Origin: Amphirosellinia nigrospora
Lineage: Eukaryota; Ascomycota; Sordariomycetes; Xylariales; Xylariaceae
Direction of reading: 5' to 3'
Length of the DNA: 64,000 nucleotides
NCBI GenBank assembly: GCA_004123355.1
Contig: SCHM01000002.1
Span: 6,793,569 to 6,857,568, forward strand
A model generated the notes under the pieces. It made no database searches. It was not told where the DNA came from and worked only from the letters and a program-made list of their open reading frames with translations. This document shows, one piece after another, positions 24,079-64,000 of this stretch. Numbering within the stretch: position 1 is the first letter of the stretch; each line of letters begins with the position of its first letter. Position numbers and translations under genes: made by a program.

Positions 24079-24080
24079 AA

Positions 24081-24114
<34 letters not shown>

Positions 24115-24285
24115 TTACTATATTTTATTATTAATATTATAAAAACTTTAATTTATATTTAATAAAATTTTTTTTTAATCGGGCTTTTATATTATATCGA
24201 TTTATATTAAAGCTTATTAAAGCTAAATATAAATAAATTAGCTAGTTTATTTTAATTTAATTTTTAAACGTTTTTAATTATTAAC

Positions 24286-24336
<51 letters not shown>
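24079..24336. repeat. Poly-A / poly-T inverted pair
   Basis: An A-run of about 26 bases (24079-24104) is followed about 180 bp later by a T-run of about 49 bases (24288-24336). The two runs are complementary and could fold back on each other. They could equally be tails of two oppositely oriented dead non-LTR elements. Run lengths in such a region are unreliable. Confidence 0.5.
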
Positions 24337-30605: not shown

Positions 30606-30640
<35 letters not shown>

Positions 30641-33313: not shown

Positions 33314-34195
33314 ATGGAGCTCGGATACTGGATCGCATTTTGGATCTTCTTCGGAATTTCCGTATTATGCCAGTTTCACCCTGTATTCAGGATTTCCTTC
33401 CTCGTGTTGCTAGTGCTCATGGTAACGAGCAACAACCAGATGTCGCAATACTGCTGGGTCACCTTTTGGCTCAGTTTCGGCTTTGCGTACAAAGGCTTGC
33501 ACGATCACATCCCGGCACCCGCCGTAGGCATGGGCCTTGTATACGGGATCTTGGCTATAGCTCGCTTCTTCGTGACTGTGGATTATGAAATGCCGACTCC
33601 AGTCTTCTGGGTACTTGTCGTTCTCCTCGCGCTAACATACCACGGAAACACTGCGGGAAGCTTCCTACATTATGTCATTGTGATCTTTAGCATCCATTCT
33701 GCGGACGACGGTATCCGAATCCCGGGACTTCAGATCAGCTATCACATTATATCGGCCTTGATCATCACCCTGTTCGTTGTCGTGAACATTATGGCGCATG
33801 CCCAATACACGGCGTCGATCCTGCTCTGGGTCATCGCGGTTGGTGTGTTCCGCCACGAGATGTGGCCTAACAACAGAGAATTTGGCTGGAAGTGGATTGG
33901 TGCCTGGTATCTCCTGTTTCAAGCTTTGAATTTCGCCTTCGCGCCATATATGCCACCACCTTGGTACGTAATGTGGGCGGTCATTGTCGTCGGCTTGGGC
34001 TTCCAGTTCCACCCTGGCCAGTCCCTCGGGGATTCGCTCTCTGGGCTGCCACAATCCTTGTGTTGCGCTTTGTGTTATTCTTCATCTATGTTTTCTATTT
34101 CCTCAATGGTGCGAGGGCGGACCTTTTCCCTTTTAATCTCTTTAGCTCCACGTGGAGAAAAGGCAGGCCACGCTGGTTCCCGCTCAGCGCTATGA
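33314..34195 (+). CDS. Polytopic membrane protein segment, probably fused to HET
   Basis: This frame begins MELGYWIAFWIFFG and contains about nine to ten hydrophobic helices up to about 34030. I do not recognise the family. At the run GGGG (34028-34031) the frame changes. Read on in the present frame, the protein becomes non-hydrophobic and stops at 34195. With one extra G it continues as LGGFALWAATILVLRF, a clear further transmembrane helix, then an Arg/Lys-rich stretch. It then runs without a stop into the Cys-x-x-Cys start of the HET segment (34192). So the likely gene is a single membrane-HET fusion spanning 33314-36780. The overlap of the two reading frames at ATGA (34192-34195) is then an artefact. 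The start is chosen because it follows a TATA-like box and begins a strongly hydrophobic segment. A real frameshift or a hidden intron is possible, but no GT-AG pair of the right length was found. Confidence 0.6.
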   Translation: MELGYWIAFWIFFGISVLCQFHPVFRISFLVLLVLMVTSNNQMSQYCWVTFWLSFGFAYKGLHDHIPAPAVGMGLVYGILAIARFFVTVDYEMPTPVFWVLVVLLALTYHGNTAGSFLHYVIVIFSIHSADDGIRIPGLQISYHIISALIITLFVVVNIMAHAQYTASILLWVIAVGVFRHEMWPNNREFGWKWIGAWYLLFQALNFAFAPYMPPPWYVMWAVIVVGLGFQFHPGQSLGDSLSGLPQSLCCALCYSSSMFSISSMVRGRTFSLLISLAPRGEKAGHAGSRSAL

Positions 34196-36780
34196 AGCAA
34201 GACGACCACAACATAGCGACCTTATGCGAACAATGCAACAATGTTATCGAGAATTCAAAGCTTATCATCGGCTCCTCGTATCTCGCCCGACTTGTAGAGT
34301 CGCACGAATTCTCGACTAGAGTTGAGTTTGGTTCCAAGTTCAAAAAGCCTGACGCTGAACCAGGGACCAGCGATATCATTTCGGACTTCCCTACGTCATC
34401 TTGTCATCTCTGCTGTCTCATGTGGTACTCCATGAGCCCAACACGCCAGGACGAGATACAAGATGAAATACGCCGGAAAACAATCCAAGCGGGGTGCGAC
34501 TCACACGAGAGTACTGATGATGGCCGCTTCGGTCTATCTAAACCTCAGGATCCCGAGGCTGAACTGAGGATCAAGGTGTGGGAGGAGCGGCCGCTGTCAC
34601 CCTATACATACCTACAGCTTCATTGGGGCGAAATACCAATTGGGTCCCGACTCTTAGTTTGTCGGGAGTCCCAACAAACTCAGGACAAGCCTTTTGCTAC
34701 TCGTGAGTCTCTTTCCATGACACCTCCATATCGACTGCAAACAGTATCACTAATCACTATAACAGCATCGCCCGCTATCAGTTCCTTCAAGACCAACTCC
34801 ACAGAGCATTTCGAGCAAGCAAAGAAGTGGCTCGAGATGTGTAGAGCTGGTCATAAACTCTGCCAGGGTGTAGGAAACGCGAAGCTTGAGCTTCCAGCAT
34901 GAATGCTCTACGTATCTGGCGGACAAGACTGGACGATAGAAAAGCCACCAGCGGCTGTTAAGCTGATCCAAACGAACCTAATCGACCCGAATACTGCATA
35001 TTTAGCGCTAAGTCACTGCTGGGGTAAAACAGAGGAGATAGGATTTAAACTTACGTCGACTAACATTGACGCTTGCTTCGAGAGCATTGACTTTGGTAGT
35101 CTCTCTAACAACATGAAAGATGCTATTGTCGCTACAATATCTCTGGGCTTCTCATACATCTGGATTGATTCCCTATGCATTCTACAGAGAGACCACAGCA
35201 ACGAGGAAGACAATAACCCAGACGCTATTTGGAGGAAAGATTGGAAAGCCGAGGCTAAGAAAATGGGCAGTGTCTATTCCGGGGCGGCTTGTACCATAGC
35301 ATCGACAGGGTCGCCTAGTAGCGCTGGTGGATGCTTCCACAGACGGAACTGTAAGAGCCTTGAACCCTGCAAGATCGGCGTCTCTTCACCAGACGCGCTC
35401 TTACCTCGGTGGATTTATGCTCACAAAGACGATGTCATGGAGTTTGAGCGAAGCGTGGATATGGCGCCACTCAACACTCGAGGCTGGGTGATGCAAGAAC
35501 GGCTTCTGTCTCGTCGTATCCTCCACTTTGGGGCAGGCATGATATTCTGGGAGTGCTGCAGCCGGTCGGCCTCGGAGCTCAACCCGCATGGATATACTTA
35601 CAAGAAGATTTCGCAAGATTTCAAGGATCACTATGCGCCCGACCTCACTGGATATATCTCTAACCGTGCTGAAATGCAGCAGGCGGAAGCCCAGGGGCGT
35701 GGGTTCAGCTGGGCCACCGCAGAGCAGGTTCGCCGACGACCGCCGCCCGCAATGGTAGACCCAGATGCTCCACGTGATAGCCAGGCTGTGTGGCAGCATA
35801 AATTTGCCTTCTGGAGGAACGTTCTCAAACCCACAGCCGAAGCCTGGGAAGACGATGAGGGAGATACAATGACCGACCGTGCGCGTGCCGGGTTCAGAGC
35901 GGCGTTTGAACGGCTCCGTGGCAGCTCGAGTACGGAGCAGCTCTCAGGAGCAACACAAGTGGGCAGAGATAGCTTCAGCCAGACGTGGTATGATGTCGTC
36001 GAGTCGTATTCACGCGGAAAGCTGTCATGGCCGACGGACAAACTGATCGCGTTGAAGGGTGTTGAAGATGAAGTCGCCCGAGCGACGAAGTTTACATACC
36101 TTCGAGGGCTTTGGAAGGAACGGTTGGTGACGGATCTGCTGTGGTTTGCCATTGACGGCCCGGGCAAGCGTCTACTGGACAACGGAATCCCAGTGGCGCC
36201 GACTTGGTCGTGGGCGTCCATCGAGGGCGCCGTGTCAATTGACCTGCTTCCGGAAAACTCTCGTCTTGATATCAAAGAGGCCAAGGTACTTGTTACTATT
36301 GAAAACTCCAGCCCAAGCAGCGATAATCCCGGGGATATGATGGTAGTCTTGAATGGCCCCCTACTCCCTATCTCAGCGCCAGTGTCAGACGGCACTATGT
36401 GGACCATCAGCATCGGCACAGGCGACCACGCTTCGGCTAGATTCTTCCCCGATGTCCAATCTCTTGATATTGGTATGATGACCGACTTAGCATGTCTGAC
36501 CTTCCTGGTGCTGGATCGTCCGAAGGAAAAGTTAGCACTCAACTCGTCCAGTGAAGATGTTCAGGGGTTGGTTCTGCGGCTCATGAGCTCAAGCGAACGG
36601 GATGATGCTATATTGGATACATACGAACGAGTTGGCTACTTCACAACTAGCTATATGACTAAATCGCGAGCCACTCAGTTGGGTCGTAAGGCACTGAAGG
36701 AAGCGGAGGTCAAAAGTCTATGTATCACTGGGTGGTCTGCGGGGTTCTCCCACCGGTCTCCGCCGCAAGTCTATTCCTGA
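34192..36780 (+). CDS. HET domain (heterokaryon incompatibility) protein, interrupted
   Basis: HET proteins trigger programmed cell death when genetically different fungal cells fuse. The N-terminal part has LCEQC and later SSCHLCCL, the paired cysteines common before HET domains. An intron is likely at 34703-34765 (GTGAGT...CTAATCAC...ACAG, 63 nt). It keeps the frame open either way. The HET core has all three conserved motifs: YLALSHCWG (about 34999), SYIWIDSLCILQRD (about 35150) and RGWVMQERLLSRRILHF (35479). A C-terminal APTWSWASIEG follows, also typical. An in-frame TGA at 34900-34902 interrupts the chain at LELPA-stop-MLYVSGG. Family members usually have Arg here (LPxRLxxV), so CGA-to-TGA is likely. 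From 34903 to 36780 the frame is fully open (625 codons). Upstream the frame is continuous with the membrane segment if one base is added at 34028-34031. Status (pseudogene, sequencing error or read-through) is open. Confidence 0.85.
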
Positions 36781-37789
36781 ACAGCAGGGTTCGCAGTTGA
36801 TAGTCTCTTCCCTAGACGCAACTTCAAGCGACATACTCAAGAGGCACAACTAAAACAATCTCGTCCAGTTTCACAAGCCTCTGCTGCGACACATCAATGA
36901 ATCGTGTGGTCCTATGTAGCAACCTGGACTCAGGTGTAATAGACTGACAATCCGCTCGCGAACGCACTTATGAGCCCAAAGCCAGGCCTGCGGTGAGTCT
37001 GCCCATTTAGAGAAGACGCCATGCGCGAGCACGGGCTCTAATCTAAGCATTTCCCCGACACGTCGCCTCCGGGAATCCAGATGATCAGCATATAAGTTGC
37101 ATCCGAGTTGGCCAGGTACAGTCGTATCATTAAAATATAAAGTTTTTCCAATGTTAATTTTTGCAAGATTTAGTATGTATTTTCACCCCTTATTAATTTA
37201 CCCCTTTTTCTTCAAATCACTCGCCCTACTTCACTACTTAGGAAGTAACCTCAGTTGCGTATTTTTCAACTAACTATGTGCCCGTTAGGAGCGTTGCCGG
37301 CTATTATTAAGTGAAAGAAGGGCACAACAATGCATGATTGGGATCCGACTGTGTTTGACAGGGACCTCTATTCTTATTCGGCGAATAAATATCATATTTA
37401 ACGGAGCACACGAGAGTTTTCCAGCTGCCTACCCAGTATTCCTTAAAGAAGACTTTATTTAATAGGCGAATCAGTCAAAGATATCCCGACGAGACTGTAA
37501 GTTTTACGCCCCTATATGCTTTATACATAGCTATGACAATGTATATGAGTCAAGAATACTGTTAGTATCATATTAGTATACGTCATTGATCCTCCACCTT
37601 TGGACACCCGGTGTATATGATAGTCCAGAGACGAAAACCTGCTGATCACACTTCGTTGCCTCCGCCAGTGATACGTGACGGATAGTATATCTCGCATACT
37701 TCCCTCTATATCATGGGGCTGGTAACCTGTAGCAATCGACAATGTCTTGTCGCGTTCGTGATAGTAGACGGTACTACTGTCTTGAAAAC
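36781..37789. other. Intergenic, no gene seen
   Basis: 3' flank of the HET gene followed by unremarkable sequence with a local AT-rich patch at about 37130-37215. No ORF with family motifs, tRNA or clear repeat was recognised. Confidence 0.6.
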
Positions 37790-38157
37790 CGACACCAAGG
37801 ACAGAGCCCTTAGTGTCACACGAATCTGGCTGAGTGCGCAATACAGTGCCACACGGATCCCACACAGAGTTCGCTAAATACTACCCTACGAGGCTGAGGC
37901 AGTCGTACAAAGTTATCGTAAGTCGCAAGCAGACACCGAAGTTGAACTCGAGTACCGAGACACTCGGTTCTCCGGCTACACAGGTCTCTAGGTAGGTTGG
38001 CGGAGGTCCGCGAAGGAGAGGAGAATTCTGAGCATAAAAGGGCACGAATCCTCCCCTCAAGGGAATAAAGAACTTAGATCTATATGACCCCTTTGGCACC
38101 ACAGTTGCTTATTACTCAATTTGAATCCCATTCCAAGCCCTCTATCTGAGCCCTGGT
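37790..38157 (+). mobile_element. TE fragment (LTR-like) that escaped RIP
   Basis: Normal-composition sequence whose RIP-mutated relatives are at about 1232-1590 and 21258-21890. A TATA-like GCATAAAAG (38032-38040) is followed by AATAAAG (38064-38070). This is the order of promoter and polyadenylation signal expected in an LTR. The homology ends near GGTGACACAAC. It may extend some tens of bases to the left. At about 365 bp it is shorter than the duplication length RIP usually needs in Neurospora (about 400 bp or more), which could explain why it is not mutated. It could be a solo LTR or a truncated insertion. Confidence 0.6.
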
Positions 38158-41100
38158 GACACAACCTTAGAAGTCAGGGTGTGGGGTGTATATTGATATC
38201 TTTCGTTGCGCGAAGAGCCCAGTTCCCTCCGAGGGCTAGTCCCTAGGGTCTCAGGCTTCATGAAGCTTGACAAGGGAGGGGCTGAGGGGTCCGGGTGAGG
38301 GATCGTGAGATCAAGTGGTGTCTTGTGAATTTCGACGAGGTCACAAAATACACAGACTGGCTCTATGTTGACTATTCAGGACCTGTATTCAGCGGAAATA
38401 CCTCGGTAGACGCCATAAAAGCCTCCTAATAGCATACCACCAGTTCTTCGCAGTTTGATTTGGTCAGCAGTAGTGAGTGTATCGCGAAATTACTAAGACG
38501 TAGTGCAAAGATTTAAATGTATGCAAAACTGCTTATCAAGGTTCCATTCAGTTATTATGGATTGTATTAAATAGCTGAGATGGGTATAAACTCATTGAAT
38601 TTTCCTTGTCCTTGGGTCAGACACTCAAACGCAAGGTGGGCGAAAGGTCATTCAGTTGTCTCCTTCTTACAGACACGATGCTCTGACGACTACATTACCC
38701 AAGAGCAATCGATCAATGCGGCCACACCGGTCGAAGTGGATTTCTAGTAGGTTTTCAACAGTATAAAATCAGAGAATTCGGGGGACTAACTATCAAAAGT
38801 GCAATTTCCTGTCAATTATATTCGTGGCCGGCGAAGCGCCGGTCAACTTAAGTTCATGGTTGCTCTCACACAGGTGATTTACGAGCGTTTGGTCAGTTTC
38901 TAGCGCTGAGCTTGCTTATAATACGCTATACTGCAACTTTAATTAGTAATTATCGCGGCGTTACGCGTGTAAGCTGAATCTTATTGATACCCATAGCCTT
39001 CTAGGTGCCCTGGATCCGTTAGGGCCTCCTCAATACTAATTAATGTCGGTTTATGGAAACATGAATTAGATGCATTTTATATATTTGTGGAAATCTTTAA
39101 CTTAGCCATCTGGTCCCTACGGCCAGGAGGCCGCGAAAGATTTGATGAAGAACCCCAATGCCGTTGTGTCTAACTCTAGTTAATTTGCTCATCAGACTGA
39201 TGTTCAAGTCCAGAAATCAATTCCAGAGAATGTACAAAACCGCTGTTTTATGCTGTTTTATGCTGTTTAATAGAGAGCAGCTAGAATACGAGGTCTCAGA
39301 TGTTCAGGGAGTGGCGTGAATGTGTGGCGCTTCCATTAAATTCTATAGTGTCTTCATAGGGATAAGGCAACGAAAGACTGTCAATGGTACGTAAGGTCAT
39401 TGTTGTGGGAAGCTGCCACATAAGACCATCTAGAATCCATCTGACCGTATTGATGTCTCTGTGCAGAGTTGTTAGGAGGACGATAGTTGGTAGTTCAGCA
39501 GTTATGAATTCCTTGTTCGGGTTGTATTTATAATTATAGCTATGTTGAGCGTAGTGGGTTTTAAATTCATAAATATCTGTGGTTTATAGAAGCTCATTAT
39601 CCCATGTCAGACCAAATTCAGTAATTTCATACAGAATGCGCACGCGTGCTTTGAAAAGGGCGTAAAACTATGAAATCCTCAGTTTCGAATGAATCCGGAT
39701 ATCGTGTTGAGGGATTGCAGAAAGCAGACCTGCTCTTACGGGCTACGGGGATGTTGGGTATGTAAGTCGCCAACGTTTTAGTTACTGCAGGGAGCGGTTT
39801 CTAAGCCTCTATACTACGACGTACAAGGGAGGAGAAACGTGAAAGGGCGTATGTCAGAACAACCTGAGAAGTTGGTATCGTAGATCTAGCCTGGTCTATT
39901 TTGTAGAATAACCGACGACGCGACGTGCGATTTTAAATCAAGAATCCAGCAGGGTGGCGTAGCGAGATACTCGAGTCACTTGATGGAAATAGATCCTGAA
40001 TAAAGGGAGTTTTAGCATGTAGTTAAAGCAAATTGAAGTTGTTGAGCCGCATCCACTTGGGATATTGGCAATCATAATAACTATCGAGTGTATACACCTT
40101 ATTGATGTGATCGAAACTCTAAAATGTGATTAAAGTAAATGGAGGGACACTTCGATAAGCTAAGCTAGGGCAACATGAACTGAAACATTTGCCAGTAGCG
40201 TACGGGCGTCTAAGCGGGTACGTGACATTGATTCGGTAGGTTATCAAATTAGATGTATATCTATTTGACGAAGAGGCTGGCAAAGGTGCGAAACTAAAAG
40301 GATGGGCGATGAATTCTATTGGCCCGGTCCGCCAATCCAATAGGACCCTTTTTAGATCGGCATTGTCTCTAATACAATATGAAATATGACAACATATCAT
40401 GGCCTTATTGCTACTAGAAGTGGCCGAGGCTGGCAACTAGAAAGAGTCGGTGTCGCATAGGCCGGTCACAAGAAAGGTACACAAGGGTTTGGCACTAGGA
40501 ATGAGCATAATATACGTTAATTAAATAACAATCTGGGCCACCGTGCTTGACATACCTGGCGTTGGCGGTCTGGGTTATCCATCCATATCATCTTAAGCAA
40601 GTAGAAGAGGGGGCGTGAGCGCCATGCTTTCGCTGCAACTTCAGTGGCAAAAAGAGGATGACGTGTTGCCAGCTAGCTCTGGACCTCGGAGCCCTAAGAC
40701 AGTGTTGGGGGCTAAGTAGTTTCATAGATCATAATTTATTTGATAGGCTACTATGCGTCCAAGTAGGCACCTTAAGGCAGATACGTGCTAATGCTTAGGT
40801 AATAAGCTGTGCGATAGGAGGCTCTCTACCCGATTGAACATGAGTTATGGTTATTGCAAGAACACGCTGCAGTCACGGGATCGAGAGTACCAGCTTTTGC
40901 GTGTCCACACAACTTCGCTCCGAGGCCACGTGATTCCCACGTATAAGGAAGTGTAGCAACACATGAAGTATCTAGCTCCAATGTCCTTCCCCTAGTCGTA
41001 CACTATATTAGCTAGGTAAGCAACAGTTTTCGTTTTGGTCCCCATATCTTTGCACAAAGTTGGTACTAACACAAACGACAACTGGAGGACGGGGGACGTC

Positions 41101-42780
41101 TCGTTTGGCCACACATGCAATGACAACTCAGACGCTCCAGGCCAAGCTTCATCGCCACGGCGAGACGAAGGCATGCAAGTGGGTGGGATAGGGGCTTTAT
41201 GTGATGTGGTGTGTTGAATGAAGCCGCTTGCATCCCAAGAGCCTGCTAACGGAGTGTCCTTCGTGGAGGCTATGCAAGACATCACAGCCCACCCACTTTT
41301 GTATACCTTGGGTAGACTATGAGAATGAATTAGCCCTGATGCTTGACCGCCTGTGACCCTAATAGCGACCTAGCCCTCAGCGTATCTGGAACGGAAGAGG
41401 AAAGATTTGTACTGAGGCCGCTTAGCATGACTGCCTATAGAGATATGACGAGCCCAGACCTCAGTCCCAGGACTTGAGAAGGTTTTATGGATGGTCGTGG
41501 CGTCGGCGGCCAGGCCGGCTTCTCCTACATATGTATAGCTATCAGACCAATGTCTGAGTATGTCCATGGCTGACCGTAGGCGGCCATGCGCGTTTCCTAT
41601 GCTTGCCTAGTACATAAGTACTTAACAGCATCGCGTCGTGAGCTCCCTTGCAGGGCCTCGGTTGTTTCGTGGCCCACCACCATCTCGTCAGCAAGTATTA
41701 GGATTGACTGGCCACCGCATCCTCCCAAGCCAGACAAACATGCAGGATGAGGGCGGTTGAAAAGAAACCACGTCGACTGAGGAGATATCGCTAGTCCATC
41801 CCTTTTTCTCGGGCCCTCACCAAGAGCCAGTGTGCAAATGGTGTTTCGGACCCAGATCACAAGGGCGTCAGCTGTGCCAGATATGAGACATTGAAATAAG
41901 ATCCGAAGCTTTGGCCCCGGCCTGTCTTTCCTGGGATGATCTTCGTTCGATAGTCGATCACTGAGATTGCTTGGCAATAGTCAGTCAGTCAATGACATAG
42001 CTGCGGCTCGTTGCACTGTAGACCGACACGACACGACCGGACTTCCAGACTGGACTGGACTGGATTGGACTGGGAGGGAGGGAGGGTGGTTCGTCTTTAT
42101 GAACGCGAAAAGAGCGTGCATAATGTACAGGTAAGGTAGGCAGCGAGTGAGGCCCCTCGGCCGCCCATTAACGCGTGGAAACAGGAATCGTCGCGGCGTC
42201 GCTCGCTTGCTGCGGAGGTGAGTGCCTGATTGGGCTGGGCTATCGTAGGAATCGTAATAAAATGCCCGGACTGCCCTGTGCTCCCTGTGCACCCCTGTAA
42301 TGGCCCACTCCCCCACTCCCCGAATCTGGCTCGGCATCGATTTTGACGCGATGATTGGTTTTGTCATTATCTGTTCCAGTTGCAGCGCGCATAACTTCTA
42401 ATTTGTCCACTTTCTCCAGTGAGACCCATACCAGGTTCCATATGCTGCTAAGAGACATGACGAACCAATCAACATCTTGCTGCTGCTAATTAAAGCCCGT
42501 GTTTGTCCACCTTGGGTTAGGCGGGCCCAAGCTCCTTGCATTAGGTACTGTCAAGCATGTACACTACCTCCTTGCTTCTGCGCCGAGCCCGGTAGTTTGC
42601 CTACTGTATTTGAACTACCCAGCTCAGTGCCTGCTCAGTGCCTGCTTGATTTTGCCGAATGTCCGTCGTGAGCCCATTTAATCTCTGGGCCTCATTGGCC
42701 CGACGCCCTTTGCGCCCACGCCATCGCGCGTCCGACACGCCAATCACTCCCAGCGTGGTACAACATGCATTACAGCTCTG
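38158..42780. other. Gene-poor stretch of normal composition
   Basis: About 4.6 kb without any ORF that looks like a protein. Small features: a perfect 6-bp hairpin CCGGCG-AAG-CGCCGG at 38828-38842; three tandem TGCTGTTTTA-like units at about 39242-39270; and a GGACT/GGATT repeat followed by GGGA repeats at about 42050-42087. The stretch could hold old, unrecognisable repeats or non-coding RNA. The sequence itself does not say. Confidence 0.5.
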
Positions 42781-43740
42781 TACCTAGTGTTATATAGGTA
42801 TGCGAGTATAACACCCGCCTGTTTGAGGCCAAAGCGTGTGCGCACCTATCAGTTCTGCCATTGCCCACCCCATCAGAACCCCATCTCAGGCCCATCTCCC
42901 TCTCAAGTGTTTGCAGCCAGCGATTACACCGAACTCCATCTTCGGTCCAATCAATTCACGACCGCCACCTGCTTGTACTTGAAGTGTCTCTGCCCCTGCT
43001 TCTGCTTCCTCGCTCCCGTCCTCCTCCTGTCCTACATACATTGTACCTATACGCCCACCTGGCCTATCCCGTGACGCTGCGACAGCATCCGGCCATTCAG
43101 CTGCCTCGGTCGTGCCCCAGCAGTCCCGTCGGCTCGTCCACCTCTCGCTCGCTAACATCTGGCGCTTCTCGATACTGTCGCTGCTGCTAATTCCAACGTG
43201 CATGATTTAAGACGGCTACCCACTCGCTACCTGCTACCTGCTGCTTTCTCCCCTCGCGTCAAGTCCAAGTCCCACACCACACACGGCACCGCACCGCACA
43301 CAAGGCCTCTCACTTCGCGACCACCCTCCCTTTCGCCCACTGCCACCAGAACAGCCAAGTGCGCAATAAGACCTGTCCATTCCCTCCTGGCACACCCTTT
43401 CGCCACTTTTCCTCTTGCTTCCCCTCTTTCATCGATAGGCGAAACTGCTCTCACTCCTGGCATCTATCTGTTTGAGGTTATCAACTACCGCCGCCAACCC
43501 ATCGTCAAAATAAACAAACAGCCCGGGTTCCCAACTTACACACTCTATCGTCTCGTACCCTGGCTTCTCATCCAAGCGCTTCTCGTCTCGAATCAATCCA
43601 CTATCAATTGAACTGGCTTCTCATTAGCTGTATCGAATTGAGCTAGCTTCGTCGTCATTGAGAGGTTTGCTAGCCATCAATCATCCAAGTACTCATTGGA
43701 CATCAGCAACATCATCAATCAGACTGGACGACGCTTCGCA
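42781..43740 (+). promoter_or_regulatory. Pyrimidine-rich promoter/leader of the KEN-motif gene
   Basis: A C- and CT-rich stretch with many CTCC, CCTC and CACC words leads up to the ATG at 43741. CT-rich tracts are common around transcription starts in filamentous fungi. The open frames here are low-complexity by-products of the composition. Exact start sites cannot be placed. Confidence 0.4.
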
Positions 43741-45192
43741 ATGGCTACCATTACTGCTCGTCAGCCTTTCGCGCCACTCAATGAAGCACGCCTACACACA
43801 TTAACAAGTCTAAAGAATAGACAAAATGGTGAGTCAATCCAAATCTAGTTCGAATTGTACCCCGTATTGCTACCCGCCCTATGTATGGCATCAACCACGC
43901 TCTTGGGTTTGTGCCTAATCGGCTCTCTTCCCAACTGGTGATACCCCTCTTTCCAATTGAATACCCGCACAGCGATCATTCTAGTCGCAAATGTCGCCTC
44001 CGTAACATCGTATTATTCGCGTTCTATTAAGATAGTAAACTAAACGTCAAGTAGCCATTTCAAATACCTCACCCGTGAAAAGGAAGGTTTCTGAGGTGAC
44101 CGAGTCGGACAACTCGGAGAATGTCGATCCGGTGTCGTTCTCTAAGCGAGCCAAGGGCACCGATGGCTTCATTAAGCCGTCAACCTTTTTCCTAACCAAG
44201 TCTGCCAGTACTAATGACTTGCCTGTCTCCCATTCGCCTAAACCCGCCACTCCTCTTCCGCGGACCTTCTTGAACCCTGTATCACCGACCACTAGGCTTA
44301 ATAAGAGCATAGTTCGGCCTTCACCCCTTTCTGCGCCGGGTGGGCGATCTCTGACCCGCAAGCGCTCCGGCGGTCTTCGTTCGTCTCGGAGACGTACTGG
44401 AGGCTCTTTCACTCGGATTGACCCACCTGTCTTTGCGCTCCCCACTAGTTCCTCCGTAGCCCCATTCTCGCTTGACGCTGCGCTGAGAGGCACCATTCCC
44501 GGCTACACTCACGGCGATGTCTCATCCACAAAATCGTCTTCTGGTCTGTCCGAATTTAGCGGCTTGAATGAGCCTGAAATGAAGTCATCATGGTTCTTTG
44601 ATATTCATGAAGATACCGTGATTGAGGATATGACCCGGACTATGACCGACGGTACTTCCAACTTAGATTTCAAGACGGATGAAGAAAAGGAAAAAGAGGC
44701 AAGACAGAAGCAACTGGATGAATATGAGGAGGCCAAAGAAAACCACCCCCTCTAGATGATATATCCCAGACGTCTCAACCACGAGCTGCACGAGCTGTTA
44801 ACACCGACGATATGGTGTATGAGAAAGAAAGAAACCCCCTTGGTGAGATGGACCCCAAAGATTACTACTCCCAAGGCTGCCACGAGAACTCTATTATCAT
44901 AGTCCCTGGCGATGAGGATGAAGAGATTCCCGTGCAGAATAACCGTCAATTCATCCCAGAGGCGAACGCCTCGGTGCTTGTTGGAGATAAAACGGAGACG
45001 GATCCTATTGCTGGATCTGAACCTTTGGGAGAAGAGAGATATGCCTCAGTCGAAGAGCTGATGCAAAAGACGGAATATCCCGCGCCTGGTGCTGCGGTTC
45101 TTGAGCCACTGGAAGGCACTGGCGAGAGTTTTGAGGTTTGGGAAAGTAGTAGTGCAAAGGATGAGGCAGAAGTTACCGCGGAGTGTTCATAG
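43741..45192 (+). CDS. Nuclear-type protein with KEN motif, unknown function
   Basis: Two exons: 43741-43828 and 44055-45192, with an intron at 43829-44054 (GTGAGT...GTAG, 226 nt). Exon 1 encodes MATITARQPFAPLNEARLHT and nine further residues. Joining gives NRQNAISNTSPVKRKVSEV. The middle is Ser/Pro/Arg-rich with basic patches (KRK, RSSRRR), suggesting a nuclear protein. It then has WFFDIHEDT and an acidic C-terminus. At 44746-44750 the frame breaks: the present frame ends EAKENHPL-stop (44755). One extra C in the C-run continues it into DDISQT...MVYEKERNPLGEM to the TAG at 45192, and makes the total 1227 nt (408 residues). The layout resembles a conserved Pezizomycotina protein I know only as uncharacterised. 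KEN, plus an RxxL at RNPL, are motifs of APC/C substrates. A securin-like role is speculation. Confidence 0.75.
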
Positions 45193-46154
45193 GGATAGAA
45201 TAGTCTTCTCCCTTCACGATTGGTAAGATGATGATTTAATGGAAGCGGGAAAAAGGGTAATACGTGTTCAAATTTGGGAGCGAGGGGGCAGGCGTGGCTG
45301 GAGTTGAAGGCGTTTCAAGCGGTTTCCGTAAACGGGATTGGCACAAGCTATCGGGTTTGACTTGGGTTTGATTTCTGATACTTGTTTGCCTTGTTGTTAC
45401 TGTATATACACTTGTAGAACTCCTGGTTCCGCTGCAATGGAGAATGTTCTGTTCATCGTTGACGTATGAAGACCCAGCTAATTCAGCGGCTGTGAACAAG
45501 ACATGTATTGGTCCCCTGATAGATGCCAAAGTTTCCATGTTAGTTAGTCCAGTCTAATCTTCATAAGACAGAGTACTCAATTGCTAGAAAGAGTAAAGCC
45601 ACTCGCGAATCAGGCGCTTGTTGAATCTACTAAAGCATGCATGCATGATGTATCATGATGGTACTACGCGCTGCGCATGATAGGGGGCATTATAGGACCG
45701 GAGCCACCTTACATAAGCTGTCATAGGTGGGTTAAAGTGGGCTAGTTCTCTTTGACACTCCACTAAAGCGCGCCATTGGAAGTCGCTATGATCCGACCAT
45801 GATCGTGGTAAAATCAACCCATTACCATGCATCTCGGCTTGTCTTTGTGCTCCCCACCTGACATCCAATTGAACATTGCATGACTCCAGGATCTCCTGCC
45901 TGGCCCCGTGGACTGTCTCTCACCTTGCATCCAATCAAAGCTTCAGTTGTTACCGCACGCTTACTGTAGGGTTGGCCCCTTTACTCTAGATTAGCTCCTA
46001 TATTTATATATATTCCCAACTATATACATCGTCACTGGCCAGTCCCGTCACGTGAGAGGAGACGGGAGCAAACGGCGTGTGCACAAGATCGATCCTCTGA
46101 TCAGGCCAGCGAGGCGCTTACAACATAAGACGGGACGAGAGGACGCGTTTGAGA
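45193..46154. promoter_or_regulatory. Intergenic region with TATA-rich promoter of the kinase
   Basis: 3' flank of the KEN-motif gene, then sequence without a gene. A CATGCATGCATGATG patch lies at about 45635-45655. A strong TATA-like tract (TATATTTATATATATTC, about 45998-46014) lies about 140 bases upstream of the kinase ATG at 46155 and is the likely core promoter. Confidence 0.45.
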
Positions 46155-47709
46155 ATGGCGTCCATCAACGATCTCGCCACTGCTGCGACCATCGCCTCGT
46201 CGGCCGTTGCTTTGCACTCCTCGCCCAGGGAGCAGGCCGCACAACCAACTTCGCCCTCCTCTCCTCCTCCTCAGGAAGATCCACCATCACCGCCTTCACC
46301 CTCGCCCTCGGCACAGCTTCAGGCTCAGGCACAGGAAGCCCACGCTCAGCAAATCAAGTCGGCGCCCAAATCACCAGTGACAGTGCCAGAGACCGAGGCC
46401 CCAGACCCTACCCCAAGTACGCCACGCACGGCGACATCTAATACTGCGTCGCCGGGGCCGGATAGTAGCAGCATAACCGTCAACGTGGGCGTGAGCATTG
46501 CCGCCCCCAGTACGCCAACTCCCGTGCTAGCAGCGCCGCAGATATCGCCGCAGAACCCGGCGCAGGCTACTATTCCCCACAGCTGTCCCCGGAGATGACG
46601 TCGGGAAACGGTGATGTTTCACCCGAGAAGGAAGATGGTATGGTGGGCGTGGAGTATGAAAACGAGCAAAAGAAGCCGCCTGTAAGAGGCGCGTTCATAG
46701 TCTTCGAGGGTATGGATCGAGCTGGTAAAACGACACAGGCCAAATTATTGCAGCTGAGGTGCATTGAGAGCGGAAGAGAAGTCAAGTTTATGAGGTTCCC
46801 CGGTAAGTGTGATGTTGCATAAAACTAGGACTATTTCGCGACGTCGACTCAGACTCCTATCAATCTCGAGTTTTATGCGGGGTTTGCGGCGGTGTTGTCC
46901 CGTCCAACATGACTCCCAAGCGATACGCTAAAATGCAGTGCTAACTATTCATAGATAGGACGACACCTATCGGCCAGATGATAGATTCGTATCTAAAAGG
47001 ACAAGCCGAAATAGAAGATCACGTCATTCATTTATTATTCAGTGCAAACCGGTGGGAAGCAGCGTAAGTGTTATGTCTCCTAACGACTCCTTTTCTACGT
47101 TTCGTATCTTTATTGTCTTACTTACAGACTATACAGACAGAAAATCAAGACGGAGCTGGAAGCAGGTCACACTATCATCTGCGACCGATTCTATCACAGT
47201 GGCATTGTCTACAGCGCCGCAAAACAACTGCCTTCGCTTTCCCTGCCCTGGGCAAAAGCACCCGAGGTCGGGTTACCACGCCCAGACATGGTCTTATTCC
47301 TGGACCTGGAGGAATCGGTAGCCCGATCGCGTGGCGGCTGGGGTGGAGAAGTCTATGAGAAGGGCGAGATGCAGCGCCGCGTCCGGGAGCTCTTCTGGGG
47401 CCTTAGTATGGGGACCTAGGTACAGCTGTCAGTGCCAGCAAAGCTACTACTAATAATGGAAAGGGCCCCTCATCGAGGAATGAGAGAGCCTTGTTTGGGA
47501 ATGGCACAAATAGCAGTAACGCCAGAGATCGCGAGCGGGGAGACGCAGAGACAGAGGGCCCCTTTAGGCAGGAAGAGGAGGATATCCAGATTGTGGATGC
47601 CGACATCGGTGTAGAGGAACTTGCGGACAAGGTTTGGGAGGTTGTGCGTGGTCGCATTGATGCCGTTGAAAGGGGTGAAGAGGGGAGGACTGTTCGGACC
47701 GTGAGGTGA
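46155..47709 (+). CDS. Thymidylate kinase (dTMP kinase) with N-terminal extension
   Basis: Phosphorylates dTMP to dTDP in dTTP synthesis (yeast CDC8 family). Introns at 46803-46954 (GTAAGT, branch CTAAC, ATAG) and 47064-47127 (GTAAGT...TTACAG). Core motifs: P-loop FEGMDRAGKTTQ (about 46702), RTTPIGQMIDSYL, HLLFSANRWEA, CDRFYHSGIVYSAAKQ (about 47180) and the LID region RGGWGGEVYEKGEMQRRVRE. Two frame breaks are present. At GGGG 47410-47413 the frame stops at TAG 47417-47419; one extra G continues it to DIQIVDADIGVEEL and TGA 47707-47709. At CCC 46556-46558 one extra C joins the upstream frame, MASINDLATAATIASS (ATG 46155), to SPQLSPEMTSG and the kinase. With both, the length is 1341 nt (446 residues). 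If translation starts at 46595 (MTSGNGDVS), the product has 299 residues, still longer than the usual ~210-220. The Pro/Ser/Ala-rich extension has no recognised domain and could instead be a separate gene. Confidence 0.85.
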
Positions 47710-48607
47710 AAGAGCATACCAAAAGGTTCCCATACGCATCTCAACTCAGAGTAAATTCCATCTCTAGTGCGTTATTAATCATGCTAATCATGAGATAACT
47801 CACTTTATTAAGCTTCATGGAGTCATGACCTCGGTTGTTTGCCACTATCATGGATCGTGCAAGCAGCTTGCTAGCTGATATCTCTACTCGGTACTATGAA
47901 ACTAATTCACTACAGCTAGCTACTAAGCTTATTGACAAGCGAAAAAGGAGATGGCTCTTATTACATGTCGTGCGACGATTTCAATGACGGAAGCGTAGCT
48001 CTTAGCTACTGCAAACTACGTATCCTAACCGACTAATCTGATATCTTGGCTCAGCTAAACTTGGGATTTCAATAGTATTGTAGCTTGGATGTCGTGAAGG
48101 TACATGAATTTGGCGGATATAAGCCCTAAATCCGTCACGTTTGTCTGTGAGCGGGACAGGATAGGGGCTGAAGTCTAGATCGCTGGTAATTATCCGTGTC
48201 GTGTAATCTGGCAATTTTCCGTGTTCTGTAATCTGCTATCCTTCTAAGCTAGGCCGTGCTTATTAACCGATTCTTTATTTTCCGGAGTGAAGTTGAATGG
48301 AAGTAGATGGACTTAGCAAAGGATACATTCATCCTCGATCTCAAATCGACGCCAAAGGCCCACTCATACCCGATACACCCATGAGATCGGGCATCATGGA
48401 ATAGAATGCTGTTAGTAAGGTGTTCGTGGGGTTGTTTAGGGCTGATTGATCTATCGGAGATATCATGTTGTGTATTTTATCGCCGATTTTCATCATTCGC
48501 GAGAGCTTATAAAGGAGGGAGAGGAGACGACCATCATGCTATTAGAGTGCTGGGCAGGCAGCGTCGTCATAGACACTTATTAAAAACCCAAGGATTCAAG
48601 CTTCAAG
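47710..48607. promoter_or_regulatory. Intergenic region with TATA box of SDR gene 1
   Basis: No gene seen. TATAAAG at 48508-48514 lies 94 bases upstream of the ATG at 48608 and is the probable core promoter of the SDR gene. Confidence 0.45.
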
Positions 48608-49820
48608 ATGGATATCTCGGCTTTATTCAGAGTTGACGGCATGGTCGCTGTCGTAACCGGCGGTGGCAGTGGTATGCTGTGTTCAACCCATCCAATCCGA
48701 ACGAGAATACTAATAGTTGGGCGCAGGAATCGGACTCATGATGGCTAAAGCCCTCGCGAGTGCGGGAGCAAAAGTCTACATACTAGGGCGACGAGCGAAC
48801 ACCCTCGAAGCGGCGGCTGTAAGGAGTTTTTAAGATTCATGTTACTATATAATCTCCTCCCGGAGTTATAGTCATGTCTCCGCGTCTCTCATACTTATAA
48901 GCCACTTGTGAATCCTATTCCGATCAGCGATAACTAACTCGTAGAGGCGCAGTCAGCACACCCGAGCATCATCCCTCAAGTATGCGACGTCTGTTCCAAA
49001 GAGTCGCTGCAAAGCGCCGTCGACCGCATCACCGCCGAGGCCGGGTACGTGAATCTCCTGATCGCGAACTCGGGTATTTTCGGTCCCTACAACTCCTTCG
49101 ACCGCACCCTGAGCATCCACGAGCTGCGCAAGAACCTGTTCGACGGGGTCGGCGTGGCCGAGTTCACCGAGGCGATGCACGTCAACACCACCGGGGCGTA
49201 CTTCACCATCCTCGCCTTCCTGGAGCTGCTCGACGCCGGTAACAGGAACGCGCTAAAGGGCGGCTTCGGACGGCCCAGCAAGGAGGGGAGCAGGGTCCCC
49301 CTCGTCCAGAGCCAGGTGGTCGTCACCTCGAGCGTCGGCGCGTATAGTCGCGAGAAGGCCACGCCGCCCGCTTATGCGGCGAGCAAGGCTGCTGTTTCCC
49401 AGCTGGCGCAGCATGCTGCGACGAACTTGGCGCCGTATCAGATTCGCGTGAATACGCTGTCACCTGGATGTGAGTAGCCGTAGCGCCTTGTGTTGAATTC
49501 TCTTGATAATTTGCTCTTCCATTCGCATTGCCTCACCTCGACATGTTTCCGTTCGACTACTCGTCATGAGAAGCGCCACTAACTTTTGGAGCTCCATAGT
49601 CTTCATGTCCGAGATGGCTGAGTCTATCATCTTATCCCGCGACCCGGAAACAGAAAGCCTCGATGACCCTAACTTCATGCCTGCGAGGCGGTTCGGCACC
49701 GAGGAAGAGATTGCCGGCACGATCTTATATATCGCGAGCAGGGCCGGCGCGTACTGCAACGGTTCGATCTTCAATTTTGATGGTGGGAGACTTTCTGTCA
49801 TCCGTCTACGTATTAGATAG
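48608..49820 (+). CDS. Short-chain dehydrogenase/reductase, intact, four exons
   Basis: NAD(P)-dependent oxidoreductase of the classical SDR type; substrate unknown. Exons 48608-48671, 48727-48818, 48947-49469 and 49600-49820 (900 nt, 299 residues). Introns: GTATGC...GCAG (55 nt), GTAAGG...TAGAG (128 nt) and GTGAGT...ATAG (130 nt). The cofactor motif TGGGSGIG (residues 17-24) is split by intron 1. LLIANSG replaces the usual NNAG. HVNTTGAYF carries the structural Asn. The catalytic residues lie in VVVTSSVGAY (Ser about 180) and YAASK (Tyr195, Lys199). The end, FNFDGGRLSV, is typical of fungal SDRs. No signal peptide or membrane segment. It is the only protein gene in the island that needs no frame correction. 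It converges with the second SDR at 50531-51657, with a tRNA between them. That could hint at a small accessory pathway, but the families differ. Confidence 0.88.
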
Positions 49821-50100
49821 AAGATGTGAGTAGACAATCATTCGAAAATAGAGAATGATGCGCTGTTCAGGGTACTCAAATAGCTACCCCTCAGAAATTC
49901 CAAAGAAAGAAGTTATTGCGTCTTGATATATCTGGACTACTTGTGATGAGTATCTGCCGATCGGGACAACTTCAAAATCAGAGCGTTGAAATCTAGCGCC
50001 TCAAGATTGATTCGCAATAGCAAATTGGTCAAGTTAGACGGGAGCGCCTTACACTCTCTATGGTATAGGCTCCAAATTCTAATCATCCAATTAGAACAAA
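49821..50100. other. Short intergenic stretch
   Basis: Sequence between SDR gene 1 and the tRNA. Nothing recognised. Confidence 0.5.
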
Positions 50101-50191
50101 GCCTCTATGGCACAGGGTAATGCGTGTCACTCGTACAGTATGCACTTGCGATGTTATGACAAGATCCGCGGTTCGATTCCGCGTGGAGGCA
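50101..50191 (+). tRNA. tRNA-Thr(CGT) with 20-nt intron
   Basis: Complete cloverleaf. Acceptor stem GCCTCTA/TGGAGGC, with A at 50191 as discriminator base. D-stem GCA/TGC, anticodon stem TGTCA/TGACA, variable loop AGATC, T-arm CGCGG-TTCGATT-CCGCG. The anticodon loop reads C-T-CGT-A, followed by an intron at 50136-50155 directly after position 37, the normal place for nuclear tRNA introns, then A38. Anticodon CGT at 50132-50134 decodes ACG (Thr). The overall sequence resembles known fungal tRNA-Thr genes, which also begin with G-C-(C/T)-TCTATGGC. Confidence 0.92.
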
Positions 50192-50194
50192 ATG

Positions 50195-50199
50195 TTTTT
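50195..50199 (+). terminator. Pol III T-run after the tRNA
   Basis: TTTTT begins three bases after the tRNA discriminator base, as expected for RNA polymerase III termination. Confidence 0.75.
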
Positions 50200-50530
50200 A
50201 CTTTTGGTCTTCTCGGAAACCCAACCTTTGCCATTTGCTCGAGAATCTCACATGTGAGGTAGCCTGGTAACACTGTCTTCACAATGGCCAGCTTTTGAGG
50301 CAGTATGATTAAGGTGGTGTTGATAGCTCTCGCAAAGCAATCGGATCTCTATGGTCTTCTTGTTACCCATAGTTGGTTGTAGCTGTGGTAGCCCCTTTAA
50401 GAGCAAAGCCGAGACTATATCGAGGTAGAGATATGTCATTCATTATCTTTCAGCCATTCCATATTCTGTTTGCGGTATAGCGAAAACCTAAAGTACTAGA
50501 TACAAGCCGCCCCTTTACCCATTGATGATT
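50200..50530. other. Intergenic, 3' flanks
   Basis: Between the tRNA terminator and the 3' end of the minus-strand SDR. No feature recognised. Confidence 0.5.
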
Positions 50531-51657
50531 TTACATGTGCTTATTAAGTTGAGCCTCGCTCCATTCCCAAAATTCCCCCGCTGTGCCATCACCACCTTCT
50601 GCCTGGCTCTTTCCTGCCCTTATCATCTCCGGTGCCACGTTCCATAGTTGACCCCAAGGGCAACTGCTATGCTGTTAGTATGGCACTCCTGTTCCAAGTC
50701 GAGGATAAAAACTAACCATATGACCCGACTTTTCGAGTGTAATCTCGGCGAGAACGCGGCAAATAAGCATGTGTAGGCGCCGTATACAGAAGGGTGCAGC
50801 AGAGTCATGCGCATCAGCGACTTCACTAGAGAGAACTGCTCGCGCCATAGATCCGAGTCCAGCGCGCCGGGATTCAGCGGCACCGAGATGACGCCGTCTG
50901 CCTTGTACCGACTCGCATATTCGGCTGCGTGCAGATAGTTGCCGAGCTTCGAGGAGAAGTATTTCCCCACTTGTGTGAGTGATTCCGCGTTATCGACGGT
51001 CTGGACGAAGTTCCTCGTGCTGTACGATTCGGCGGCATTCGACGATACCCAGATGACGCGGACTCTGTCCGGGGCGAGGTCTTGGCGGTCGAAACGATGG
51101 TTGGCGTCAGGAGCTTGGTGAGGGCGAAGTTTCCCAGACAGTTTACCCCGATCTCGAGTGCGTATCCCTGTTTCGTCTTTGCGCCGCTTTGGGGAAACGC
51201 AACGCCGGCATTGTTGAAAAGGAGGTGTACCTGCGACTCTCTGCGGTGAAACTCGGCCACAGTGGTTTTTATAGTAGGTAGATCGGCGAGGTCGAGATGT
51301 AGATATATCAACTCCCCCCTTGAGTTTGGCACGGCAGCTTTGATGCTATCTATAGCCTGCTTGGTCTTCTCCTCGGACCGTGCTAACATATACACCTTGG
51401 CATTCTTGGAATAAAGGATTTGGCTGATCTCCTTTCCTAGGCCGGTATTTGAGCCAGTGACAATAGTAACCTAGAAGAGTCGTCAGCATGTCCATCTACA
51501 TTTCCTACCATTATAACATAAACCTAATCGCAAACAAGAGTCACATGTGTCGGAGCTAAGGAGAATTACTTTGCCCTGTAAGTCAGGCACGTCTTTTCAG
51601 TCAAGCGGGCTTTGATGGCCAGAGGAATTGATACGCGACGCTGAATAGCCCTGACAT
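50531..51657 (-). CDS. Short-chain dehydrogenase (retinol dehydrogenase-like), frame-broken
   Basis: Three exons on the minus strand: 51657-51570, 51470-50717 and 50671-50531. Introns are 51471-51569 (GTAATT...CTAG, 99 nt) and 50672-50716 (GTTAGT...TACTAACAG, 45 nt with a perfect branch site). It starts MSGLFSVAYQFLWPSKP. Exon 2 opens VTIVTGSNTGLGKE, the TGxxxGxG cofactor site. LLFNNAGVAFP, RVIWVSSNAAES (catalytic Ser) and YFSSK (catalytic Tyr/Lys) follow. It ends PWGQLWNVAPEMIRAG and then AQLNKHM, before TAA at 50531-50533. Four single-base gaps must be allowed, at plus-strand 51603-51604 (AA), 51594-51597 (TTTT), 51092-51094 (AAA) and 50747-50748 (GG). With them the gene is 987 nt, 328 residues, the usual length for this SDR subfamily. 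The frame pieces before and after each gap line up with family order, so one gene is intended. The substrate is unknown. Confidence 0.8.
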
Positions 51658-52797
51658 ACTGATTATAGTAGTGGTGCTAAGTGCAAGGATGTATCAACGA
51701 TCTTCTGGTTCCGACGCAGACACTGATATGCCACTATGGAAGTTAAGCTCTAGAAAGCCAGTTATCGAGGGTTTGGCAAAACAGATGCCTCGAAGAATAA
51801 ACAAACATACGATCCATTATATATATGTGTGTATCTTACGACGCAGAGTGCTATCTTATGGTGGAGTGACGACCTCTGTTCTGGCCAGGCATGGATCCCG
51901 TTCCACTGCCATGGGTTTCGGTATAACATCCCCTTAGGTTTAGACGATCGCTATCATCCCCGGTTGTGATTTGATGTGATATCTTGGCAAGGCTTTTTTT
52001 TTTCACCGGTTTTTTCACCGAACTCAACATGGAATCCCAGAGCATATGATGTGACTGAGAAGTCACGGCCATTTTGGTTCATGATGAATGAAAGTGTGGA
52101 GTTCAATGGTCGGAATGGTCCCGTTAGCCCTGTAGCTCGCTAATGTGTGAAGAGTGACGTGGATAACTACTAAACCGTATACAGCTTACGAGAATGGAGA
52201 TCCTACCTATCAACGGTCGTTAGCGTACCGGTCTAGGTGCTGTTTACGTGGTAACGAATAGCATTCTTCAATACTACCTACGCAAAAGAAGTGCCGGCAT
52301 CGTAAACCATAACATGCAGGCATTGATGGCCTCTAGACCTTGCAGCTTAATAGTTCATCTTGTATATCTACCTAGTATGCGAACTGTAGGAAAGTGATCT
52401 CCAAAAAACTCATCCACATGTACGCAGTTTGCTCCGCAGATGGCAGTTGTGCTGTTTTAGGCCATACTATACCGGTATCTTCCGGATTAGCTAGTGTGCA
52501 GCGGCAGCACCAAGTTAGTACATAGTAGCGGCGGGCAAATCAATGTTAGTGTAGGATTACGGCAATGCCCGTGCCGGGAAAAGGGATGGAATGAACATAG
52601 AGATAAGTCAGTAACCTTGTATTATTTGTTGTATTGAGGTTGCACCCTACATAGTATGGAAAAAGGTGTGGTGACTGCAAAATCCCCGGGTTGTGATTCT
52701 CGACGATCATGATATCTCGTAATGAAGTCTTTTTAGTCTGATTACGTAAATAACAACCCTTAACAATGTTACACCGCTATCTCTCGGCCGTTACCTC
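51658..52797. other. Intergenic between SDR gene 2 and phosphoesterase
   Basis: About 1.1 kb. It holds the 5' flank of the minus-strand SDR (near 51658) and the 3' flank of the minus-strand phosphoesterase. No conserved ORF, RNA or repeat was recognised. Confidence 0.5.
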
Positions 52798-54103
52798 TCA
52801 ATAGTCACAAGTTGGGCAGTACGTCATTGAGTCCTCCGTCGTCGGATAAATGTCTTGTCCGTATGTTGCGTTAAGTGAGACGCTTCCAACTATAGTTCCT
52901 GATTCCAGGCGAATCCAAGTGTGCGCCTCGAGTCTCGCGAGGCTTTCTTTTGATACCGAAACCTGACGGGATCCTCTCTCCCAGTTGCCATAACCGCCAT
53001 AACCTGTATGTTGTCCGAAGCATAGGCTTATGTTGTTTGCTGGCGTCACATCCATATCAGGCAGTAACCTATCCCACTTATAGCACCATGTGTCGCCATG
53101 GTCATGTCCAGAGAATAGCGCCATCATGCCCTCTGTATGAGATACGGCTTGCATGAACTCCGTATCCTGGGCGCCGTAGTCACAAGTCCCATCGTTACGA
53201 CCGTCTGGGCACCACCCTTGAGCTTGCGGAGCCAATGGTACGTCATCATTGATCCCTGGTTCCTTATTCGGATCTACCCCGGCTTCTTGGACAGCGTAAG
53301 AGGCAAACGGGGGGATATGAACGAAGCCTAACGACGGAATTGTCTGACCATACTGCTCCTTGAGACTGTTGCTCGTCTGCTGGAACCAATCGACCACGGT
53401 GGTGTCAACCCAGTTCGGTTGTCCTACCCTGTTACCTGAGGCATCCTTTTGCTGGTACTTGAACCCACCTCTACTGTCGAAGAACCAGAGGATCAACTGT
53501 GGAAAGCATACGATCTCATCCACACAGCCATGGTCGTAGACCGGAAGATAGTAATTCGACACGCCAGCATCGGGCGTCAACACCATGCGAGATGTCCTAC
53601 TATTCTTCCAACTCTTTTCGCGTTCGAGGATAGTGGCGCCGGAAATATTGAAATCGTAATCGTGATTTCCATATGTGGATGCCCAGGTCAAGTTGCGCGT
53701 AACAAGAGGGTTGACAATCTCATCAACGTACACAGTAGCATTCTCTAAGAATCCGTTTTCGCCTGTGATGAGATCTCCATTTAATACGACGAGACCTGGC
53801 GATTCCTTATCAAGGATTTTATTGATGACCTTGACCGAATTGATATCCTGTTGCGGACCCCATTGATCCCAAGCATCTGGTTTGCCTTTAGCGCCATGGT
53901 GGTGTAAGTGACGGGGAACATACTTTCACCAAAGTGTAAGTCTTCGAAAATGGCAAGTTGAAAGGTCCCGTCCGCCCGGAAAGTCAGGGGACCAAAAGTA
54001 CCTGACTGGTCGCCGACCAGGGTTTGTTAGCCAATGGTGCCGCCTCAAGTGGCACAGCCAGGAACAGCGCAGCACTAAAAAACACAACAGCAAACACAGA
54101 CAT
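52798..54103 (-). CDS. Secreted calcineurin-like metallophosphoesterase
   Basis: Fungal phosphatase of the calcineurin-like family (Dcr2/purple-acid-like secreted group); it hydrolyses phosphate esters using two metal ions. Exon 1 (54103-53924) begins with a signal peptide, MSVFAVVFFSAALFLAVPLE. Exon 2 (53885-52798) carries most of the domain. The intron at 53886-53923 (GTATGT...AAAG) is only 38 nt, unusually short. Metal-binding motifs in order: FEDLHFGE (D-x-H), VVLNGDLITGEN (GDxxxxxxN), YGNHDYD and SGHDHGDTWC. Several N-x-S/T sites (NATV, NLTW, NISG, NISL, NATY) fit a secreted glycoprotein. It ends with CPTCDY and TGA. Exon 1 needs one extra T at the T-run that reads AAAA on the plus strand (53994-53997) to join the signal peptide frame (SATSQVLFG) to GPLTFRADGTFQ. 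With it the gene is 1269 nt, 422 residues. Without it only the frame from inside exon 2 (311 codons) is open. Confidence 0.88.
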
Positions 54104-62100: not shown

Positions 62101-62586
62101 ATAGTATAACTAAATTAATTATTATTTTATATAGTATAAAAATATTATATAATATTTTAAAAATTTTTAGAAATAATATATTAGCTAAAATTATATAAAT
62201 ATTTATTTTTTAAAAAATTTATATACAAATAAAAAATATTTTATTTGCTAAAAAAAAAAATGCTAGTTAATTAATTATATTTTTTAAAAAAAGTTTTATA
62301 TAAAAAACTAATATTTTAATACGTACGAAATAATATTTAAAAATAAACTAACTTTTAAAGAATTTTTAATTTATTTAATTAAATATAAAAGCTATTTAAA
62401 TATATATAATAAAAAAAAAAAAAAATTTAAATATATAAAAAAAAATATTATATAATATATTATAAATAATATATTTATATATTATATAATAAAAAAAATA
62501 TCTAGTTAATAATTATAAATTAATTATTTAATTTATTTATATTTAATAACTAATATTATATAAATATTAAAATATTATTTAAAATA
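56120..62586. repeat. AT-rich RIP-degraded repeat block, right side
   Basis: Same signature as the left block. The open frame at 56995-57402 is Ile/Lys/Phe/Asn-rich. It ends in four tandem ATTAAAACAA-like units (about 57350-57385) and has no recognisable motif. It is best seen as RIP debris. No RNA gene was found. Confidence 0.85.
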
Positions 62587-62857
62587 TTGCTACGCGTAGG
62601 TAAGGGGACCCAGTGCCCCCTAGGGCACTGGGGTCACCCTGTGGCTGTACGTGGCTGTGACCAGTGGCTGTGGCACACCCCACCCAGGGGTGGGTCACGT
62701 GGCCACCCCACCCAGTGGGGTGGTCACCTGACCACTGGCTACAGCCCACGTATATAAGGTAGGTGTGGTGGCCGCGGGCCACCACCACTACCTTTATACG
62801 ACCACCAGACTTATAGATACTATAATATATACTCCTACCTTAGGCTACTTATGTTAA
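62587..62857 (+). repeat. GC-rich palindromic element, copy A
   Basis: About 270 bp, with a GC-rich, unmutated core of about 200 bp inside an AT-rich block. Nested inverted repeats: CCCAGTGCCC/GGGCACTGGG; an outer pair at 62648-62667 and 62732-62752 (TACGTGGCTGTGACCAGTGG against the reverse complement of its partner, with two differences); and inner ACCCCACCC/GGGTGGGT and CCACCCCA/TGGGGTGG arms. GTGGCTGT occurs three times. CGTATATAAGG directly follows the outer arm and looks like a TATA box. A direct second copy lies 1177 bp downstream. It could be an LTR or a terminal part of a non-autonomous element. Confidence 0.65.
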
Positions 62858-63763: not shown

Positions 63764-64000
63764 TTGCTACGCGTAAGTAAGGGGACTTAGTGCCCCTAGG
63801 GCACTAGGGTCACCTTATGGCTATACGTGGCTGTGACCAGTGGCTGTAGCACACCCCACCTAGGGGTGGGTTACTTGACCACTGGCTATAGCCCTACGTA
63901 TATAAGGTAGGTGGTGCCATGGGCTATTACCACTACTTTTACAACACTACTAAACTTATAGATACTATAATATACACTCTTACCCAGGCTTTTTGTGTTA
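63764..64000 (+). repeat. GC-rich palindromic element, copy B (cut by window end)
   Basis: Same orientation as copy A but with many C-to-T and G-to-A changes (for example GGACCCAGTG became GGACTTAGTG). It lacks about 29 bp. The missing part lies between two GTCAC words in copy A, which suggests deletion between short direct repeats. The TACGTGGCTGTGACCAGTGG arm and the TATATAAGG box are conserved. The copy may continue past the end of the window. Confidence 0.65.

Follow-up and report, generated by a model that had tools for sequence, protein, structure and literature searches.

The 64,000-nucleotide stretch of Amphirosellinia nigrospora DNA considered here (hereafter the window; assembly GCA_004123355.1, contig SCHM01000002.1, positions 6,793,569 to 6,857,568 of the forward strand) is part of contig 4 of an assembly of 48.1 Mb in 11 contigs. 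Between 33 and 56 kb of this window, the GC content amounts to 43-56% (1 kb steps) and delimits a gene island, outside of which it falls to 9-27% (2 kb steps) in two very AT-rich flanks (1-32500 and 56200-64000). The island comprises a HET-domain gene, a gene unmatched in Pfam, a thymidylate kinase gene, two short-chain dehydrogenase (SDR) genes, a metallophosphoesterase gene, and a tRNA gene. Five of its protein genes are interrupted by nine frame changes, which are discussed below as errors of the assembly consensus sequence occurring genome-wide, a reading to which we give a probability of about 95%.

That frame changes affect these five genes had been proposed in an earlier sequence-only reading of the island, and the sequence as given does contain them. 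At seven of these nine places, the displacement was computed from the open frames lying upstream and downstream, the interval being the stretch free of stop codons in both frames, while the two others, which affect the 5' exon of the second SDR gene, follow from the stop codons there. All nine changes are net -1, as had been claimed, and such a uniform sign has a two-sided P of 0.004. The attribution of each change to one exact run of identical bases holds less well: five places are narrow (44728-44755, 47407-47419, 53984-54026, and the two changes in the SDR 5' exon), each of the three narrow intervals nevertheless contains more than one run, and the remaining four are wide intervals set by stop codons alone (33871-34195, 46469-46598, 50623-50989, and 50874-51345). 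Since 43% of the island bases belong to runs of at least two, placing a loss in a run is partly the choice of the reader.

The HET-domain gene (33314..36780, forward strand) starts with an N-terminal hydrophobic region and matches the Pfam HET domain in 34903-36777 with an E-value of 4.2e-25. Its -1 frame change is located in 33871..34195 (forward strand) by open frames and stop codons only, an interval in which no Pfam match above cut-off was found, and a search of the genome for paralogues of the HET N-terminus retrieved the gene itself as sole match. Besides, the gene carries an in-frame TGA at 34900..34902 (forward strand), flanked on both sides by open sequence in the same frame. Upstream of the domain, a strict motif (LP, any residue, R, hydrophobic residue) is found in 4 of 30 HET paralogues, and a looser one (P, any residue, R, hydrophobic residue) in 10 of 30, as read by eye from the same output. 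The TGA would thus probably occupy a position at which some of the HET relatives encoded in this genome have an arginine. This codon reflects a genuine nonsense mutation or else an erroneous substitution, and in both cases is a matter separate from the frame changes. The HET family is large in this genome, with at least 151 domain matches; together with the introns and the presence of the domain itself, such a size would suit a filamentous ascomycete.

The next gene (43742..45192, forward strand), identified by its open frames, presents one -1 change within 44728-44755; its two long pieces gave no match in Pfam. A frame finder based on codon usage, which had 47 conserved matches (26,361 bases) as training set and was too weak for most genes, shifts frame at 44752/44753. 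The thymidylate kinase gene (46158..47709, forward strand), the only such locus found in the whole genome, carries a -1 change within 47407-47419 and another, unproven, within 46469-46598. Its pieces match the Pfam profile at positions 1-38, 34-69, and 59-157, in that order, and solved relatives align up to residue 107 of the 111-residue piece ending at the second change, while the 3' piece yields only a weak dTMP kinase match among solved structures (E 0.55). As for the first change, no Pfam match above cut-off was found in 46469-46598, and the codon statistics prefer the downstream frame from 46505 on. Given this preference and the start codon that the downstream frame offers at 46595, the upstream frame may lie outside the thymidylate kinase gene.

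The second SDR gene (50531..51657, reverse strand), delineated by Pfam, frames, and paralogues, accumulates four -1 changes: two in its 5' exon, one within 50874-51345, and one within 50623-50989. In the 5' exon, the first frame meets a stop at 51603, the last frame opens only past a stop at 51599, and a middle frame is open across both changes, so that two successive -1 steps via this middle frame are required. Two paralogues (L072 and L073) show the same N-terminal SDR motif in a single frame, and the later SDR motifs also share one frame in L072 and L074. The last exon, at about 50531-50674, extends further 3' than the open frame ending at 50623; judged by eye, either an in-phase intron of 45 bases or further losses would account for this join, and a search of solved structures with the 3' piece gave no match. 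Finally, the metallophosphoesterase gene (52798..54103, reverse strand), which encodes a leading hydrophobic segment and matches Pfam Metallophos in 52801-53925, shows from its frames a -1 change within 53984-54026; the paralogue check for this gene returned the gene itself and one weak match only. The order of the thymidylate kinase pieces in Pfam agrees with the frame changes; at two of the nine places (33871-34195 and 46469-46598), no homologue was found against which to check them.

One indication regarding the nature of these changes comes from conserved genes elsewhere in the assembly. The genome was searched for four families (Cpn60/TCP1, an RNA polymerase second-subunit domain, Hsp70, and a Prp8 domain), and neighbouring matches were compared, all 56 matches being used; a frame change was counted when adjacent matches lay in different frames with fewer than 40 spare bases, leaving no room for an intron (one Hsp70 pair has 38). 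In the 24 match clusters so obtained, which comprise 29,763 matched bases and 32 junctions, 23 junctions show a frame change without intron room, 19 of them being -1 and four +1 or -2. These changes hit 13 of the 24 clusters on six contigs, with -1 changes on C1, C4, C6, C7, and C8, and one +1/-2 change on C5. One RNA polymerase gene contains five -1 changes inside about 1 kb. In the same line, the PROCN domain of Prp8 switches frame at profile position 251/252, the matched stretches of the two frames overlapping on the DNA, and two further Prp8 changes, the first of which is -1, fall between pieces that are consecutive in the solved structure 9l5r (chain residues 166-436, 438-538, and 526-776). 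The window counts nine changes over roughly 9.1 kb of coding sequence (a length estimated from coordinates), the number predicted from the control genes being 7.0 (P = 0.28); by this measure, it does not stand out from the rest of the assembly.

A second line of evidence is provided by genes whose products are not translated. The tRNA gene of the window (50101..50191, forward strand), found with Rfam and having an apparent intron, was not called by ARAGORN; its exon reads GGG where both sister copies found (L037 and L038) read GGGG, and it counts 91 bases instead of 93, the other absent base falling in a variable part of the intron. Among the at least 33 5S rRNA genes listed, 31 were used and two rearranged copies (127 and 132 bases) were set aside. 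A length of 120 bases is observed in 11 of the 31, the other 20 are shorter, and none is longer. Twenty-one copies lie within three substitutions of a 120-base copy, and 12 of these are devoid of one to four bases, giving in total 21 lost and no gained bases in counts made against the longest common copies, a choice that favours losses; 13 of the 21 lost bases belong to runs of three to five. Apart from these counts, two copies (L107 and L108) display internal insertions or a replaced 3' part and are probable 5S pseudogenes.

Because the same type of break recurs in conserved genes and in RNA genes elsewhere in the assembly, missed letters are the most likely origin of the nine changes, and the sequence-only reading is supported in preferring consensus error to pseudogenes. 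Single bases would have been dropped from the consensus, often though not always inside short runs, at a rate that, among the genes examined, falls slightly short of one per kb of conserved coding sequence, and the source may be error-prone long reads that were not polished with accurate ones. The living genome, as these comparisons strongly suggest, has the dropped bases.

Several observations nevertheless weigh against this reading, or at least against its simplest form, in addition to the bias of the 5S counts just mentioned. The TGA of the HET gene is no lost base. Eleven of the 24 control clusters contain no such change, and 4 of the 23 control changes represent a gain or two losses, although two of these four belong to a single messy cluster (C1:6115480-6116998), with stops inside its matches. 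The second of the two further Prp8 changes is best read as one gained base, so that gains seem to occur. Likewise, a diverged 5S copy (L105) has two gained bases, and three identical 5S copies share one shorter run while three related copies are without the same T; such shared shortenings imply that part of the 5S differences is probably real variation. The preference for runs is itself weak: when the intervals of 22 control junctions (the 23 without two that belong to the messy cluster, and with one added that is possibly a short intron) are compared with intervals drawn at random from the same loci, the mean length of the longest run is 2.95 in the former and 2.72 in the latter, a mean of 2.95 being reached by 38 of 500 control sets. 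In the control genes, losses in runs are accordingly a tendency and not a rule, and the claim that all the damage consists of single losses in runs was too strong. Lastly, the flanks contain stretches of A reaching 26 bases and stretches of T reaching 49. As for run lengths at large, their tables display no sharp cut-off, although in 19 housekeeping loci C runs of four to six number 144, below the 199 expected from a first-order model. A truncation of all runs, which would be the mark of one platform, was ruled out by the existence of runs of up to 49 T.

Some of the nine changes might rather be misread gene models, in which introns or wrong starts mimic a frame change; this explanation, which is compatible with consensus error for the rest, seems unlikely. 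It draws on the two intervals for which no homologue was found (46469-46598 and 33871-34195), on the codon statistics favouring the downstream frame of the thymidylate kinase from 46505, and on the in-phase intron that the 3' end of the second SDR gene permits by eye. However, intervals of 13, 28, and 43 bases, as well as SDR 5' changes standing a few bases apart, leave no room for an internal intron, introns longer than these narrow intervals having been judged by eye only, and the SDR motifs are in one frame in the paralogues.

It could also be supposed that the island genes are real pseudogenes in the course of decay, for instance at the edge of mutated AT-rich blocks. The adjoining flanks do carry a mutation signature, with a TpA/ApT ratio of 1.24-1.56 and a CpA+TpG index of 0.17-0.40 in the steps at 30-32 and 56-58 kb (four 1 kb steps), which presumably reflects something akin to the repeat-induced point mutation of fungi, and the TGA of the HET gene, if real, would be a nonsense substitution of the kind expected from a pseudogene. 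Yet from 33 to 54 kb the same indices differ from those of the flanks (0.67-1.12 and 0.89-1.36, respectively), the nine indels all share one sign, the only thymidylate kinase locus found is among the broken genes, and matches to Prp8, an Rpb2-type subunit, CCT, and Hsp70 break alike, showing that the damage is not confined to dispensable genes. Decay restricted to the edge of an AT-rich block was ruled out by these like breaks in conserved genes elsewhere, and pseudogenes as a general explanation are very improbable.

The bases might, in principle, be truly absent from the DNA and be restored or bypassed by ribosomal frameshifting or by nucleotide-inserting RNA editing, which would fit the single sign seen across many genes and, for RNA editing, the shortened tRNA and 5S rRNA runs. 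In myxomycete mitochondria, mRNA, tRNA, and rRNA are described as subject to insertional editing (PMC6141538). Nevertheless, frameshifting is powerless on tRNA and rRNA, of which copies show losses, so that explanations at the level of translation cannot produce the shortened runs of these genes, and the same RNA gene has copies with and without the loss in one genome; this whole class of explanation is barely credible. To our knowledge, no nucleotide-inserting editing exists in fungal nuclei, and a nuclear counterpart of insertional editing, by which a fungal nucleus would add the missing mRNA, tRNA, and 5S bases back in RNA, is even harder to credit.

Consensus error of the kind favoured here has known parallels. 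Erroneous deletions in runs two to eight bases long, resulting in frameshifts that resemble pseudogenes, are described for long-read assemblies in PMC12007338, which also credits Watson and Warr with finding such indels in human assemblies; gene-fragmenting deletions in short runs are already well described. The present case shares with that work probable deletion errors that break reading frames, but the latter dealt with small genomes, bacteria among them, for which references and raw reads were available, while the genome studied here is fungal and its control genes show a weaker preference for runs. In the fungus Drechmeria coniospora, nanopore-only assemblies at chromosome level have conserved genes broken by indels, mostly in runs, and polishing introduced long A and T runs, as reported in PMC7500977. 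The assembly studied here resembles them in its broken conserved genes and in its long A and T runs, located here in the flanks, whereas polishing in D. coniospora gave more insertions than deletions, and losses dominate here.

As artefacts, the frame changes are of little biological interest, and their value is that of a quality warning. Gene catalogues, pseudogene counts, and claims of gene loss drawn from this assembly would be erroneous for a large number of genes: of the 24 control clusters, 13 are split. The test applied, which combines frame jumps between adjacent domain matches with the length spectra of dispersed 5S rRNA genes, needs neither reads nor relatives, and could be used for screening other eukaryotic assemblies.

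Some further features of the window can be mentioned. The first SDR gene (48608..49820, forward strand), for which the sequence-only reading lists no frame change, matches Pfam adh_short and adh_short_C2 in 48938-49474, and weakly, below cut-off, in 49497-49817, its first piece being without a Pfam match. About 6 kb of GC-rich sequence (36900-42900) separate the HET gene from the next gene; among the open reading frames listed there, none that begins at a start codon exceeds 128 amino acids, and the one at 37524-37880 gave no Pfam match. The left flank contains very long single-base runs, namely an A run of 26 and a T run of 49 at 24079-24336, and a T run of 29 at 30608-30636; the long A and T runs of the flanks could themselves be products of assembly or polishing.

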